Assembly: GCA_009886095.1 (NCBI GenBank)
Contig: VFJL01000044.1
Coordinates: forward strand, 1-38,989
Direction of reading: 5' to 3'
Source: Nitrosomonadales bacterium
GTDB taxonomy: Bacteria > Pseudomonadota > Gammaproteobacteria > Burkholderiales > Nitrosomonadaceae
DNA: 38,989 bases
In this document: positions 7,798 through 38,989 of the stretch, piece by piece
How the letters are laid out: the number at the start of each line of letters is the position of its first letter
How positions within the stretch are numbered: position 1 is the first letter of the stretch
Notes under the pieces: model-generated
Database searches by the model: none
What the model saw: the letters and a program-made list of their open reading frames with translations, nothing else
What the model was told of the DNA's origin: nothing
Position numbers and translations under genes: made by a program

Positions 7798-8103
7798 TTA
7801 TGCGGCTATTAGTTGGGCGCGTTGCACCTTTGGTGCACCTGCCTTGCGTACTTGCCACAAGTCGTATGCTGCCTGCTCTGCAATCCATAAATCAGCCCGT
7901 CCGCCGTTTTCAACTCCTAACCAGCCCTCCAAACGTAACGCCATTTCCGGGGATATTGCGGCGCGTTCATTCAGTACGCGTGATAAAGCGGCACGTGTAA
8001 CGCCTAACTGCTTGGCGGCCTCGGTAATGGTTAACCCCAGCGCGGGCAACACGTCATCTCTCAATGTTCCGCCGGGGTGGGGTGGGTTATACATTCTGCT
8101 CAT
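7798..8103 (-). CDS. higA: HigA-family antitoxin (XRE-type)
   Basis: The 101-residue protein starts MSRMYNPPHPGGTLRDDVLP and has the HTH region ITEAAKQLGVTRAALSRVLN followed by ISPEMALRLEGWL, the standard HigA addiction-module antidote pattern. It would neutralise a HigB mRNA interferase and repress its own operon. A GGAG ribosome binding site lies just upstream, and the start is 12 bases after the stop of the HigA-HigB fusion gene, so the two are co-transcribed. Its natural partner toxin is represented only by the C-terminal half of that fusion, so the antitoxin is probably an orphan. Confidence 0.88.
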   Translation of the reverse strand: MSRMYNPPHPGGTLRDDVLPALGLTITEAAKQLGVTRAALSRVLNERAAISPEMALRLEGWLGVENGGRADLWIAEQAAYDLWQVRKAGAPKVQRAQLIAA

Positions 8104-8115
8104 GGTTATTTTCTC

Positions 8116-8430
8116 CTAGTGATAATCTTGATAGTCAATCAATATGGCATTCTCTCCATCAAAGTCGAACGTCATACGCCAGTTGCCATTTACCCAGATA
8201 GACCAATGCCCGGTCGATAGCTGGTGCAGATTCCATCCTGGCGCGTTCATATCAACGGGGCTTTTGGCAAGGTCTAGGCGCAATAACTGCTTCCCCAGTT
8301 TTGACGCATGGCGCGACAGCATCACTCTGGAAACTCCCAAGTGTTTGGCGAAAGCGGTAACACTCAATCCCAGGTCGTCTAACCAACCCGTCAAGACTTC
8401 GCTGGGGTGTGCGGGGTCGTGCATGTCCAT
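8116..8430 (-). pseudogene. HigA-HigB chimera created by deletion between tandem higBA modules
   Basis: An open frame of 104 residues whose first 37 residues or so (HPSEVLTGWLDDLGLSVTAF, then AKHLGVSRVMLSR) are the N-terminus of a HigA antitoxin. The remainder (LLRLDLAKSPVDMNAPGWNL, then WSIWVNGNWRMTFDFDGENA and DYQDYH) is the C-terminal two-thirds of a HigB/RelE toxin. The join falls in the antitoxin recognition helix at about LSR/HASKL. A GAGG site precedes the ATG, so the chimera may be translated. The toxin fold lacks its N-terminal helices, so activity is doubtful. Listed as a pseudogene because neither parent gene is complete. Confidence 0.8.
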
Positions 8431-8494: not shown

Positions 8495-8602
8495 ACTTTT
8501 CACCACCCGCAAACCCGCTTTCGCTGGCACAAACTTAATCCCGATTTGCTCCAGTATCCATGCTTCAATCTTGACGTGCCACTTGCGCAGCAGGTCAAGC
8601 GG
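8495..8602 (-). pseudogene. Tyrosine integrase C-terminal remnant, copy 1
   Basis: The minus strand encodes PLDLLRKWHVKIEAWILEQI and then GIKFVPAKAGLRVV before running out of frame. This is the extreme C-terminus of a tRNA-site tyrosine recombinase family whose members carry RPLDLLRxWHxKIExWxLEQAGI just after the catalytic tyrosine. The core 8531-8602 is 72 bases long and about 86 percent identical by eye to 9221-9292 (10 differences), so the two come from related but distinct integrases. The upstream boundary coincides with the end of brnA. Confidence 0.65.
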
Positions 8603-8888
8603 TCTTGCGCATTTCTTCCCGGATTGTCTTGCGCACTATGGTTTCCAGGTTTTCCGCCTGCATTGCTTGCTTGAGCGTTTCATTTATCAAAGTTTGGTAA
8701 CCGCGCCCACCCGCCTTGGTCTTGAAGTATTCCAGTGTGACGCTATCCAGAAAAATGTTAATCCGGCGTTTTCCGGGTAATACAGCACCGTCCGTTCCTC
8801 GCTTGCGCAATACCAGCTGTCCGCTCGTTATATCGGCCTGTGTAATGGGCGCATCATCAGAAATTTTCATGATAGATTTTTTGCTCAT
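8595..8888 (-). CDS. brnA: BrnA-family antitoxin
   Basis: The 97-residue protein has a ribbon-helix-helix-like C-terminal half (KRRINIFLDSVTLEYFKTKA, then GYQTLINETLKQAM), as in BrnA antitoxins that bind BrnT and repress the operon. It overlaps the brnT 3' end by 32 bases if the first ATG (8888) is used; an internal ATG at 8870 would shorten the overlap to 14 bases. Its last few codons overlap the integrase remnant, suggesting the locus was inserted at or rejoined to that sequence. Confidence 0.85.
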   Translation of the reverse strand: MSKKSIMKISDDAPITQADITSGQLVLRKRGTDGAVLPGKRRINIFLDSVTLEYFKTKAGGRGYQTLINETLKQAMQAENLETIVRKTIREEMRKTA

Positions 8889-9129
8889 TCTTATCTGCCT
8901 TTCGCATGGAAATAATACGTATCGTTTTGTTAGTTTCTGCCGTAGTGATTATCACGACTTTGCCATGCAATAACCCCAGAGTGATATAGCGCGATTCGCC
9001 GTAGTCAAAGCGCCTATCTTCAAAGGTAACGGCTTGGGCGCTTTCAATAACGCTTCGCGCATCATCAAAATCCACCCCGTGCTTTTTCAGGTTTGCGGCT
9101 TTCTTTTCCGAGTCGTAGCTGTATCGCAT
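8857..9129 (-). CDS. brnT: BrnT-family toxin (RelE-like ribonuclease)
   Basis: The 90-residue product begins MRYSYDSEKKAANLKKHGVD and ends IRIISMRKADKNEQKIYHEN, the BrnT pattern (K-x-x-N-x-x-K-H-G-V near the start, RIIS-x-RKA near the end). BrnT cleaves RNA and is neutralised by BrnA, encoded directly downstream. The ATG at 9129 was preferred over a GTG at 9147 because it matches the family start. All key family positions look intact, so the pair may be functional, unlike the neighbouring higBA remains. Confidence 0.87.
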   Translation of the reverse strand: MRYSYDSEKKAANLKKHGVDFDDARSVIESAQAVTFEDRRFDYGESRYITLGLLHGKVVIITTAETNKTIRIISMRKADKNEQKIYHENF

Positions 9130-9179
9130 GGCGGGTTTAATATACACACAAAAGTAGATACATTCAAGTCGAGTTTAAT

Positions 9180-12361: not shown

Positions 12362-13492
12362 ATGACCAGAACTCATGTCAAGACCGTCGCCGTGGTTACC
12401 GGCCATGACCAGCCCAAACTGTCCAAGGGACAACAGGCATTCAATAATCTGATCAAGCAGATTGAAAGAAATCGTGCCCAGTTGACTGACTGGGAAGCTG
12501 CCATTTCGCGCTACCAGCAAAAATACGCCCGTGAACTACTACCATTGGTTGAGGACTTGACGGATATGCAAGCCAAGTTGGTGCATTGCCTTGACCGGGT
12601 CAGCGATCAAAAAGGATTGACCAGAACTGAACGCCGCGTGATCGCCGGCGTGATCGCCGATATTGCCGAACAAGTGTTGGCTGGGCGTGACGATACGGAG
12701 TTGAAAGCCATTTACAACAAACACGGTCGTTTCGACTATGACAGCGAAGAAGCCGCGAGCATCAAGGGCATGAAATCCATGTTGGAGGATGTGCTGGGTG
12801 TTGATCTGGGCGATGACCTTGATGTGAGCTCACCGGAAGATCTGATTAAGCGTGCTCAGGCGCGAATGGAAGAAAATCGGGCGCAGAACAATGCTGACCG
12901 GCAGGCTTGGGAAGAGCGTCGGCCAAAACGAAAAAAATCAGCCAAACAACTCGCTAAAGAAGCCCAGCAGCAGGCCGAAGAGCAACAGGTCAGCCAATCC
13001 ATCCGCGAGATTTACCGAAAGCTGGCCAGCGCCCTACACCCGGATCGCGAACTCGATACACAGGAACGCGACAGGAAAACCGCCTTGATGCAGCGCGTCA
13101 ATCAGGCTTATGAAAAGAGAAACCTGCTGCAGTTACTGAAACTGCAACTGGAGTTGGAGCATATTGACCAAACCGCCGTCAACAACATCAGCGAAGATCG
13201 CCTGAAGCACTACAATAAAATACTGAAGGAACAACTTGCCGAACTGGAACAGGAAATCCGGCAAGTCGAAGGCAGGTTCATGGCGCAATTTGGTATATCC
13301 CCGTTCGTAAAAGTGTCCCCCGCCACTATCATGCGCGATCTTGCCACCGACATCGTTGGCACCCAGCACGCCATCCGCGATTTGAAGAACGATCTGCTCG
13401 CGTTTGAAGACATCAAGAAGGTCAAGGTCTGGCTCAAAAAAGTGCGGCGCCAGGCAGCTGAAATAGATGACTTCGACAGCTCCCCTTTCTGA
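12362..13492 (+). CDS. J-domain protein with long coiled-coil N-terminus
   Basis: The 376-residue protein is strongly charged and helical. A J-domain-like segment (SIREIYRKLASALHPDRELD, then RKTALMQRVNQAYEKRNLLQ) places the essential HPD tripeptide at residues 226-228, so the J domain is internal rather than N-terminal. The sequences before (TKVAVV onward, with a KKSAKQLAKEAQQQAEEQQ linker) and after look like coiled coil. J-domain proteins stimulate the ATPase of DnaK-type Hsp70s; the client here is unknown. It is monocistronic, since the neighbour downstream is on the other strand. Confidence 0.8.
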   Translation: MTRTHVKTVAVVTGHDQPKLSKGQQAFNNLIKQIERNRAQLTDWEAAISRYQQKYARELLPLVEDLTDMQAKLVHCLDRVSDQKGLTRTERRVIAGVIADIAEQVLAGRDDTELKAIYNKHGRFDYDSEEAASIKGMKSMLEDVLGVDLGDDLDVSSPEDLIKRAQARMEENRAQNNADRQAWEERRPKRKKSAKQLAKEAQQQAEEQQVSQSIREIYRKLASALHPDRELDTQERDRKTALMQRVNQAYEKRNLLQLLKLQLELEHIDQTAVNNISEDRLKHYNKILKEQLAELEQEIRQVEGRFMAQFGISPFVKVSPATIMRDLATDIVGTQHAIRDLKNDLLAFEDIKKVKVWLKKVRRQAAEIDDFDSSPF

Positions 13493-36472: not shown

Positions 36473-36865
36473 ATGGATACGGAAAAGAACCCATTTGATG
36501 AGTTGTATGACAAGATTGAAAATGCGGTAAAGGATTTGACCACGCTAAAGGTAGTCACGGCGGTGGGCGCTGTAACCATCGGCCAGAACAGCGTCACCGA
36601 AAATGGTGAGACCCGCGAAACCCGTGTCGAAAGTTACCAGAATGCCAAAGCCATCATTAGCACAATAGACCTGATTGACGGCGACATTATGACCGTTATG
36701 GATGAAGTGTTTGTCAACGAGGCTACCTATGCCAGTATCCGCGATGAGCATCTGGAACGCATCAAGAGCGCCCAGGAAATTGTAGATAAAAACATGCAGA
36801 CCTTGCTTACTTTGGTCAAAGCTGTTGGCGACATTCTGGATGCCATTAAAACCCATAATAAATAA
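36473..36865 (+). CDS. Unknown protein 1 of a three-gene cluster
   Basis: The 130-residue acidic, mainly helical protein (MDTEKNPFDELYDKIENAVK; LTTLKVVTAVGAVTIGQ; then a charged TENGETRETRVESYQNAKAI and IDGDIMTVMDEVFV) has no signal peptide or membrane segment. The C-terminus (RIKSAQEIVDKNMQTLLTLV) looks like an amphipathic helix. I recognise no family. Two ATGs at 36470 and 36473 compete; 36473 has better spacing to GGGAG. It is followed after about 290 bases by the next unknown gene on the same strand. Confidence 0.72.
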   Translation: MDTEKNPFDELYDKIENAVKDLTTLKVVTAVGAVTIGQNSVTENGETRETRVESYQNAKAIISTIDLIDGDIMTVMDEVFVNEATYASIRDEHLERIKSAQEIVDKNMQTLLTLVKAVGDILDAIKTHNK

Positions 36866-36943
36866 AATATAGGGTGTAAGCAAAACTGGAGCGCTGGTGG
36901 GGGTGGCAGGTAATCCTGACCCGCCCGCAACAATTTGTACGAG

Positions 36944-36965
36944 TGGTTATAGCGTCCTATAGCCA
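36944..36965. terminator. Inverted repeat after unknown gene 1
   Basis: TGGTTATAG and CTATAGCCA form a nine-pair stem around CGTC, 79 bases after the stop of the first unknown gene. There is no T-run, so it may be a regulator site or weak terminator rather than a strong one. The rest of the 290-base gap shows no gene. Confidence 0.35.
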
Positions 36966-37157
36966 TCAACAGATCACGCTAGCGATATAGCCCCCCTCTA
37001 TTCTAAAGTGTCTTCGCGCTGATTATTGTCTATTAGAAGACGGCTCAAGCCAGCTACATAGCGACTGCCTACCTCGATGAAAAATGCATAATGTGGGCCT
37101 CAACCTGTTAATGCACTGGCGTGCGTACTAACAACCTATTTTCGAAGGATGCATTTC

Positions 37158-38165
37158 ATGGCAGAAAAAGATACTACCGATAATACGGGAGATGTTGCCG
37201 GAAATTTTAAGGATATTGTAAAAGATTTATTCAATATCGAGGTCAACACCATTTTGCGAGACAACATTTCCGCACAAAAAATGCCTAATCCCCGGCATGC
37301 CTTGCTGGATATTGGTAGCGAGTATTATGAAATCTTGAGAAAAATGGAAATTTCTCATCGTCTTTTTCATTGTGCTTCTTTGCAGGAAAATAGAACGGAG
37401 GAAATAGAGGGCGATGCAGAATTCGGATCTGTAGAATTTGACGATATGCGCCGTAAGTGGGGATTTTATACACAAGAAGAAGCAGATGAGGGTACGCCCG
37501 GCGACAAAAAAGTGCATTTGGTTGTGCAGTCGTTGGTATATGACCAGCTAGGTGGATTCGCTGCGTTTGACATTATGCGAACCTGGGCTGACAAATTTTT
37601 GGGAGATCCTTTTTTGGCAGACCCTAAAAAAAGGTATCTGACCGACACACAACTTTCTGTTCTACCACGTATTCGAGATAATGCCGACATGCTTAAAGGG
37701 ATGTTCATCGCGATGTGTCGTCGTGATAACAAGCTGAAAGAGAAGGGTTTGGCCGATGAGATGAAAAAGAAGCGTGGAAAGGAACTGACACCGGTTACAG
37801 TGGTGGAATTGAGTCAAAAAATTGATTTGGAGCAGACATTGATGCTGACCAATCAATATACCCGGTCAGAGATTGTGAGTACCGAGAATCTTTCACCATT
37901 ACCGTTGAAAGATAGCGAATTGGTGTTAATACGCAAGGTGTGGGAAATAGGTACGGAAGTAATTGCGATGCAGACGACTATTCAGGTAGATGGAGATGTA
38001 ATTACTCGCTTGAATCCGAATTTTATGGATGACAAGGAATCCCAATATTTGAGAGCGTATCATAATGAAGGGGTACGTATCGCTTTGAGCTACTGGGGAA
38101 ATTTAATTGCTGTTGCTAAAGAGTTGGTGCTGGCTATTGCGCGAGGAGTGTCGAACAAACCGTGA
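37158..38165 (+). CDS. Unknown protein 2 of a three-gene cluster
   Basis: The 335-residue soluble protein (MAEKDTTDNTGDVAGNFKDI; DIGSEYYEILRKMEISHRLF; VVQSLVYDQLGGFAAFDIMR; KEKGLADEMKKKRGKELTPV) is helical, charged and without signal peptide. Near the end it has VWEIGTEVIAMQTTIQVDGD and SQYLRAYHNEGVRIALSYWG, which look like a helical bundle. I recognise no family. ATG 37158 is preferred because AAGGA lies 8 bases upstream; ATG 37149 is too close to it. Its stop overlaps the start of gene 3, implying coupling. Confidence 0.8.
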   Translation: MAEKDTTDNTGDVAGNFKDIVKDLFNIEVNTILRDNISAQKMPNPRHALLDIGSEYYEILRKMEISHRLFHCASLQENRTEEIEGDAEFGSVEFDDMRRKWGFYTQEEADEGTPGDKKVHLVVQSLVYDQLGGFAAFDIMRTWADKFLGDPFLADPKKRYLTDTQLSVLPRIRDNADMLKGMFIAMCRRDNKLKEKGLADEMKKKRGKELTPVTVVELSQKIDLEQTLMLTNQYTRSEIVSTENLSPLPLKDSELVLIRKVWEIGTEVIAMQTTIQVDGDVITRLNPNFMDDKESQYLRAYHNEGVRIALSYWGNLIAVAKELVLAIARGVSNKP

Positions 38166-38734
38166 TAATGAGTATGTGGCGCGATTTGCAAGATGTAATG
38201 AAGATGGTCAGCGAGGGCGGCTTGCAAGTGGTAACGCTGATACCTGAGTTGGAAGGAGGTGCCGCCGTGTTCTCCCTATCCTCCACCTATCAAGGCAAAA
38301 TTTATGACCAACGAGGCATCCGCACGACTATCCAGTTTGATTCGGATTACATCACAACAATCTCACCAGAAGTGCTTGCCATGCCGGAATTGTGGCAGCG
38401 GCACACGGATGTTTTGCGGGAAAAATTAAGCATCCTGAAAAAAACGCAGTTTTGGGTAGGGAAAAGCTGGCTTCTGTTTTTAATTTACCCCGTTTATACG
38501 GTCATCTTTGCTCTAATGACGGAGGGATTTCCGGGGGAATGGTTGTCGTTAACCAGTGGTGCTCATGTGGGGATGGCCATGGGGCTAGTCGCGGGGGCAG
38601 CCGTAGTGCTGGCTCGAAAATTGTTCGTACGTCTCTTGCGTGTGCTCTTGCTGCCCCCAGTTTTGTGGGCAGCCAGGTGGTATGCGCAGCGGCGTTTCCA
38701 GCAGTTTATTTCCATGCCGGCGGCACAAGGGTAG
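38162..38734 (+). CDS. Unknown membrane protein 3 of a three-gene cluster
   Basis: The 190-residue frame starts with GTG 38162 (GTGA overlap with gene 2; ATGs at 38168 and 38174 are alternatives). Its first 95 residues or so are soluble (LQDVMKMVSEGGLQVVTLIP; IQFDSDYITTISPEVLAMPE). Two membrane segments follow (WLLFLIYPVYTVIFALM and GMAMGLVAGAAVVLA) and a basic C-terminal tail (ARKLFVRLLRVLLLPP). I recognise no family. The layout suggests an inner-membrane partner of protein 2. Confidence 0.78.
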   Translation: MIMSMWRDLQDVMKMVSEGGLQVVTLIPELEGGAAVFSLSSTYQGKIYDQRGIRTTIQFDSDYITTISPEVLAMPELWQRHTDVLREKLSILKKTQFWVGKSWLLFLIYPVYTVIFALMTEGFPGEWLSLTSGAHVGMAMGLVAGAAVVLARKLFVRLLRVLLLPPVLWAARWYAQRRFQQFISMPAAQG

Positions 38735-38989
38735 CCACTGTAAAGTAAATGGGTGTGCCGGTTTGTAGTGTGCAGAGATATTTTTTTTACCGCCCGGCAA
38801 AAACGGTACTGTTGCATTAGCGGGTACAGCCACAGTTTCGGTAAGCTATGCGTCAACGGCTACCGCCTGGCATCATCTCGGCTCCCCAATTTGTGAGGGT
38901 GTCCTGGATTTTGTGTAAACGGAATTTCTTAATATTGTTCTTCAGAGCCTACCGCACAGCACCGCACCGCACCACACCACACCACACCA
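38735..38989. repeat. Gene-free end with a pentanucleotide tandem repeat
   Basis: No gene is seen after 38734. From 38951 to the window end the + strand consists of nearly eight units of ACCRC (ACCGC, ACAGC, ACCGC, ACCGC, then ACCAC three times and a partial unit). Such a repeat can slip during replication and also breaks assemblies, so the window end may be a contig end. Confidence 0.7.

Follow-up and report, generated by a model that had tools for sequence, protein, structure and literature searches.

A rare, horizontally acquired cassette of three paralogous genes, with a YbaB-like fold predicted for two of its products, in a Nitrosomonadales bacterium

The three-gene locus

The last 2.3 kb of the window, as we call the whole stretch of 38,989 nucleotides analysed here (contig C20 of the 2.1-Mb draft genome of an ammonia-oxidiser-type bacterium from a family that includes Nitrosospira), contain three consecutive open reading frames on the forward strand, designated g1, g2 and g3 and collectively referred to as the trio (Table 1). 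The PTS genes ptsI, HPr (ptsH) and EIIA-man, recognised by Pfam, lie upstream on the opposite strand. The three ORFs are real and under purifying selection: dN/dS values (NG86) against the Nitrosospira orthologues are 0.18 for g1, 0.23 for g2 and 0.33 for g3, and 20 other loci carry homologues arranged in this order, so that the frames are more than chance openings. A gap of 290 bp separates g1 from g2 in the window. Searches of the locus for a promoter, a terminator, a repeat or an Rfam family gave nothing beyond chance.

Both g1 and g2 encode acidic proteins with a net charge of -10 each. The g3 product carries two hydrophobic spans (residues 100-118 and 136-154) and a basic C-terminal tail according to its hydropathy profile, an arrangement that would place both termini in the cytoplasm. 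The initial annotation of this DNA had proposed three consecutive same-strand genes ending with a two-span membrane protein, both of which our data bear out, and a GTGA overlap coupling g3 to g2. The more likely start of g3 is the ATG at 38168 (MSMWRDL, 2 nt after the g2 stop) and not the GTG at 38162, because its relatives open with M(S/R)MWRDL or MWRDL; the overlap would thus be merely apparent in the window. True ATGA overlaps between g2 and g3 are found at four other loci (L011, L012, L016 and L017), which suggests that translation of the two genes is coupled.

Table 1. Features of the three-gene locus, with their positions in the window
Feature	Position	Strand	Description and basis
g1	36473..36865	+	130 aa from ATG 36473 (ATG 36470 also possible); predicted bare alpha-beta3-alpha core, acidic; ORF, alignment A4, AF2 model
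g1 copy of shared motif, STIDLIDGDIMTVMDEVF	36656..36718	+	G70 and D71 invariant in A4; hhalign against g2 and g3
g2	37158..38165	+	335 aa; predicted core, its strands 1 and 2 separated by a helical insert; ORF, alignment A5, AF2 model
g2 helical insert, residues 45-264	37290..37949	+	Secondary structure of the model; gaps in A5; length varies among homologues
g2 copy of shared motif, MQTTIQVDGDVITRL	37968..38012	+	A5; hhalign g2-g3
g3	38168..38734	+	188 aa from ATG 38168 (38162-38734, 190 aa, from GTG); putative core plus C-terminal membrane hairpin
g3 copy of shared motif, RTTIQFDSDYIT	38324..38359	+	Q58 and D60 invariant in alignment A6
g3 two transmembrane spans and the short loop between them	38465..38629	+	Kyte-Doolittle peaks 1.82 and 1.82
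Dispersed repeat upstream of the cassette	36289..36386		Matches of ~95 bp at several places in genomes of the same genus
Dispersed repeat downstream of the cassette	38889..38938		Matches of 43-51 bp, 82-95% identity, at 11 or more places in G008

The upstream repeat is intergenic, and at least five genomes of the genus contain it at several positions. The downstream repeat (TTTTGTGTAAACGG) appears to resemble the end of an insertion sequence. In the sister genome G008 it recurs many times, and these copies often lie about 105 bp from the end of a contig; the contig of the window itself stops 51 bp past the repeat, ending in a simple repeat of the CACCG/CACCA type (38955-38989).

Several other features of the window were recorded in passing. 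A BrnT/BrnA type II toxin-antitoxin pair (8595-9147, minus strand; Pfam 1.9e-25 and 3.3e-9) lies downstream of a tRNA-Met gene and adjoins genes of the Hig type. Among these, an ORF at 8116-8430 (minus strand) matches Pfam HigB-like_toxin over residues 35-104, and its first 34 residues or so resemble the helix-turn-helix start of the adjoining HigA antitoxin (7798-8103); this ORF looks like a deletion fusion or the remnant of a second toxin-antitoxin pair. At 12362-13492 (plus strand) a 376-residue protein has coiled-coil-like flanks and a degenerate J-domain, which matches Pfam DnaJ at 1.5e-5 and so falls under the cut-off.

Searches against known families

None of the three proteins had been recognised in the initial annotation, which regarded the cluster as a candidate undescribed system, and this still holds. 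Neither g1, g2 nor g3 gave a meaningful match in Pfam, NCBIfam, PADLOC or PHROGs, housekeeping families included, and scanning 16 members of each protein against Pfam assigned no family to any of them. The single PADLOC match, of g3 to Cas12d (E 0.078), is at chance level. Trypco2, EACC1, EAD and other domains of conflict systems were considered as candidates and found unsupported in the same scans of 16 members per protein. These genes are not described in the partial collection of papers that was searched, and both the three families and the trio are new relative to those libraries and that collection.

Phage or viral relatives were sought as well: PHROGs returned only matches with E above 0.03, and neither a phage record nor an IMG/VR relative was found (queries P0002 and A5).

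Three diverged copies of one domain

The products of g1, g2 and g3 share a domain that reads T-x-I-x-x-D-G-D, followed by a helix with a conserved H. In the alignments (A4 for g1, with 16 members, A5 for g2 and A6 for g3) the corresponding stretch is STIDLIDGDIMTVMDEVF...H at the end of g1, MQTTIQVDGDVITRL...H at the end of g2 and RTTIQFDSDYITTIS...H in g3. Profile-profile comparison with hhalign aligned all three in the same register, with E-values of 8.9e-5 for g1-g2, 8.6e-5 for g1-g3 and 2.2e-6 for g2-g3. The N-terminal ends of the proteins are also alike, each with a helix followed by L-x-V-x-T, and P0004, the divergent relative of g1 from G431 described below, matches the g1 profile as well as that of g2. 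On these profile comparisons, a shared ancestry of the three genes as diverged copies of one domain is well supported. The picture of two soluble proteins with an unrelated membrane partner, drawn in the initial annotation, is hence replaced by one of three paralogues of a single fold, a view to which the structure comparisons below also contribute.

The copies differ in what has been added to the core. The g1 protein is the bare core, g2 is the core with a helical insert, and g3 is the core, in this case deduced from the profile match, with a membrane hairpin. The best conserved positions of g2 sit in two core pieces on either side of a middle part of variable length, and the invariant residues in A5 are E28, N30, K41, P43, R259, K260, W262, G265, E267, Q272, G279, D280, V281, H302 and W313.

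A predicted YbaB-like fold

The AlphaFold2 model of g1, built from 16 sequences (pLDDT 77, pTM 0.58), consists of a helix (residues 7-20), three strands (24-43, 46-66 and 72-76) and two further helices (78-82 and 84-128); the first two strands form a long beta hairpin, and the short helix precedes the long last one. The g2 model (pLDDT 78, pTM 0.73), predicted separately, has the same elements, strands 1 and 2 being set apart by the helical insert of residues 45-264. Of the earlier descriptions of an acidic helical g1 and a 335-residue helical g2, the acidity of g1 and the length of g2 stand; the g1 model is alpha-beta3-alpha and not purely helical, and only the middle of g2 is helical, its ends making up an alpha-beta ... 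beta-beta-alpha core.

When the models were compared with known structures by VIA-align, the best match of g1 was HP0035 (Z 6.7, 85/93 residues, rmsd 4.0) and the second was E. coli YbaB (Z 6.5, 77/80 residues, rmsd 3.3), with the next row at 4.4. For g2, YbaB entries took ranks 1, 3, 4, 5 and 13 (Z 6.3, 6.1, 6.0, 5.9 and 4.9) with matches spanning residues 8-331 around the insert, the other rows being helical bundles and receptors. The structural signal for YbaB came from VIA-align, and its Z values are middling (below 8). In a plain Foldseek search of g2 the H. influenzae YbaB structure 1j8b ranked second; Foldseek alone gave no E-value below 0.1, nor any match with E < 0.001 on PDB and BFVD, so that the structure prediction and Foldseek searches proposed for the cluster, as run on g1 and g2, returned YbaB-like matches of which none is significant by Foldseek alone. 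A sequence search of the PDB returned no match for A5 and one chance match for A4 (E 0.038, 22 residues). Resemblances of the g2 insert to She2p and to designed bundles (Z 5-6) were discarded, being at the level expected of any helical bundle.

In many bacteria the ybaB gene lies between dnaX and recR, and the YbaB/EbfC homodimer is tweezer-shaped. Helices 1 and 3 of the YbaB subunit are long, helix 2 is a short bridge, and the three antiparallel strands form the dimer interface; YbaB proteins bind DNA (PMC2720974). With moderate confidence, the predicted models have this topology, namely a first helix, three antiparallel strands, a short second helix and a long third one. Because the Z values are middling, the assignment leans on the two separate models and the order of their elements taken together; on that basis it is well supported that g1 and g2 carry a YbaB-like alpha-beta3-alpha fold as predicted. 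The same alpha-beta3-(short alpha)-alpha topology is seen in YbaB/EbfC proteins (PF02575; 1pug of E. coli, 1j8b of H. influenzae and 3f42, HP0035), and g1 resembles them further as a small acidic bacterial protein. It departs from them in its much longer strands 1 and 2, as do g2 in its helical insert, g3 in its membrane hairpin, and the operon in having three paralogues.

Direct homology to YbaB was dropped as a claim, since hhalign against 44 YbaB proteins gave E-values of 0.11-0.17 that were equalled by shuffled columns. Pfam scans found no PF02575 match in g1, g2, g3 or the members of A4-A6, and a genome-wide search for PF02575 located one classical ybaB gene (G000:C57), outside the window. 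Sequence kinship being undetectable, we speak of a YbaB-like fold and not of the YbaB family. Nor does the trio lie between dnaX and recR: it adjoins ptsI, ptsH and EIIA-man in the window, and lies between other genes in Nitrosospira.

Occurrence and horizontal acquisition

The trio is one co-inherited cassette, rare and patchy in its distribution. It is present in one of nine genomes of the genus. A search of 101 relatives for g2 returned only the genome of the window and that of Nitrosospira sp. Nl5 (G043, locus L005; 69% identity), and among 369 genomes of the class it occurs in two. When a profile of six g2 proteins was run against a collection of 85,000 species, 20 loci were recovered, including Nitrosospira, Anaerolineae and Chloroflexi bins, Candidatus Brocadia, Azospirillum, Roseomonas, Beggiatoa, Sphingomonas natans, Acetobacteraceae, Desulfobacterales and others, and thus four phyla: Pseudomonadota, Chloroflexota, Planctomycetota and Thermodesulfobacteriota. 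Seven Azospirillum megaplasmids have g2 as well. The initial annotation had asked whether the genes co-occur in other genomes, and they do: at each of the 20 loci the order is g1, g2, g3, with all three genes on one strand. The g1 gene was recognised by profile in 20/20 loci and g3 in 18 (E <= 0.01); in the remaining two, L017 and L018, g3 is weak by profile and the next ORF encodes a membrane protein with a Q-x-DGD motif. As the loci had been found through g2, the 369 genomes of the class were also searched with g1 alone, which returned the same two genomes and one divergent case, G431.

The cassette was acquired horizontally. It is low in GC, at 43% against about 53% in the surroundings, and most of its sequence falls within 42-46%. 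In Nitrosospira Nl5 the trio sits between a glutathione-S-transferase (GST) gene and a TerB-DnaJ gene, which lie about 2.6 kb apart; the same two genes were matched in 22 other Nitrosospira genomes searched, and in the five genomes that were aligned they are 178-230 bp apart, representing the empty site. In the g2 tree, in which some other branches are long and unsure, the two Nitrosomonadaceae group with three Chloroflexota (support 100/99), apart from the other Pseudomonadota. No integrase was recognised beside the trio.

Gene neighbourhoods

Across the loci the trio has no constant neighbour gene. In Chloroflexota, an FHA-M23-SH3 envelope protein is encoded directly upstream of g1 at L010 (2920-5709) and L011 (2-1654), the two copies being 64% identical. 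Other neighbours comprise nSTAND1 (L010), a GAF/PAS histidine kinase (L012), a caspase-hydrolase (L013), a TPR-cyclase (L016), an eCIS_core protein (L017) and a Ser/Thr kinase with a CHAT protein (L018 and L028), and on the Azospirillum megaplasmids the trio directly follows parA-parB.

As regards defence neighbours, no defence genes adjoin the trio in the window or in Nitrosospira, and circumstantial cases occur elsewhere. At L018 the sole CHAT gene of a 3.3-Mb genome lies 2.3 kb from the trio, and at L013 one of that genome's three caspases lies 3.1 kb away. By hand arithmetic, two CHAT or caspase genes were seen within 7 kb of trios in eight genomes where about 0.11 were expected, an excess that we take as a hint because the families were chosen after the neighbours had been seen. 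The divergent g1 relative of G431, in the region L109 8249-12634, is 133 residues long and matches the g1 and g2 profiles, while g2 and g3 themselves are absent. The next gene encodes an unrecognised 498-residue protein, and the g1 relative stands back to back with a multi-span patatin lipase gene and adjoins a HsdR-HsdS-YhcG-HsdM type I restriction locus. Its position beside the patatin and restriction genes is the strongest hint at a conflict role, and the arrangement as a whole could represent a separate undescribed system.

Interpretation and rival explanations

The explanation that we consider on balance probable, by a small measure, is that a horizontally moved trio of YbaB-like paralogues forms a membrane-anchored hetero-oligomer that acts as an accessory module. 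The three subunits would pair through the same strands, a pairing proposed by analogy with the strand-mediated dimer of YbaB and on the ground that the paralogues are always produced together. The C-terminal hairpin of g3 would keep the resulting hetero-oligomer on the cytoplasmic side of the inner membrane, and the g2 insert may provide a variable surface that binds a partner or ligand. Such a cassette would be accessory and not housekeeping, and is possibly tied to cellular signalling or conflict responses; this link is weak because the neighbours differ between lineages and the counts are post hoc. An extended version, in which the triplicated fold builds a membrane-anchored complex for sensing stress or invasion, with proteins such as CHAT, caspase or patatin recruited as effectors that differ by lineage, we regard as unlikely.

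The sensor-effector or defence role suggested in the initial annotation is not established by these data. Defence against phages or plasmids, by a membrane-anchored complex that senses invasion and then damages the membrane or recruits an effector, is conceivable though rather doubtful. The rarity, patchiness and horizontal movement of the cassette agree with it, as do the multi-span patatin lipase and HsdR-HsdS-YhcG-HsdM genes beside the g1 relative at L109 and the CHAT (L018) and caspase (L013) genes near trios (two seen against about 0.1 expected in eight loci); yet these two families were picked post hoc, no phage or viral contig yielded a relative, PADLOC is silent, the trio contains no effector, nuclease, other enzyme or toxin domain, and its neighbours in the window and Nitrosospira include no defence gene. 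The membrane-associated, multi-component conflict systems described by Kaur et al. 2020 (PMC7159879), of which EACC1, with its single transmembrane helix and constant caspase partner, is an example, resemble the trio as small conserved gene sets with one membrane component and a patchy spread, and in the caspase or CHAT genes near some trios. In the trio, unlike EACC1, the membrane component is a paralogue with two spans, and no peptidase is a constant partner.

Two further readings start from what YbaB-type domains do elsewhere. DNA binding by YbaB proteins (PMC2720974), the fold of g1 and g2 and the parA-parB genes directly before the Azospirillum trios would all suit a DNA-binding complex that g3 links to the membrane, for example in replicon positioning. 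We think this quite unlikely: sequence kinship with YbaB is undetectable, g1 and g2 carry their strong negative charge (not a decisive point), par genes are absent from every other lineage, and EspL demonstrates that a YbaB-type domain can serve protein stabilisation (PMC6319747). EspL, of the mycobacterial ESX-1 system, stabilises its ESX-1 partner proteins and is a proposed chaperone (PMC6319747), and is in turn the model for a trio that serves some secreted or membrane protein as its chaperone or adaptor, an explanation to which we give even less credence. The eCIS_core protein near L017 and the conserved upstream FHA/M23/SH3 envelope protein in Chloroflexota (L010 and L011) are in its favour, but no client or secretion gene is constant across the loci, and the neighbours in the window and Nitrosospira are housekeeping genes. 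The likeness, compared by function only, lies in a YbaB-type domain devoted to the stabilisation or assembly of an envelope-linked system (PMC6319747); in contrast to EspL, the trio has no ESX genes nearby, and EspL has no reported membrane-anchored paralogue or helical insert. The presence of the trio in only one of nine genomes of the genus, and the wide g1-g2 gap, might finally suggest spurious or decaying ORFs, or unrelated genes merely side by side. This reading is so improbable as to be hardly tenable, being refuted by the dN/dS values of 0.18-0.33, by co-inheritance across four phyla and by the shared domain.

Conclusions

Three protein families absent from the libraries searched gain a common predicted fold and a common origin, and their genes travel together across four phyla. 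Should the hetero-oligomer that we favour indeed form, a YbaB-like fold, so far known mainly from a small nucleoid-associated homodimer, would have given rise to an assembly of several subunits anchored in the membrane. At about 2.3 kb, the cassette makes deletion, expression and phage or stress challenge straightforward, and Nitrosospira offers naturally filled and empty sites for comparison.
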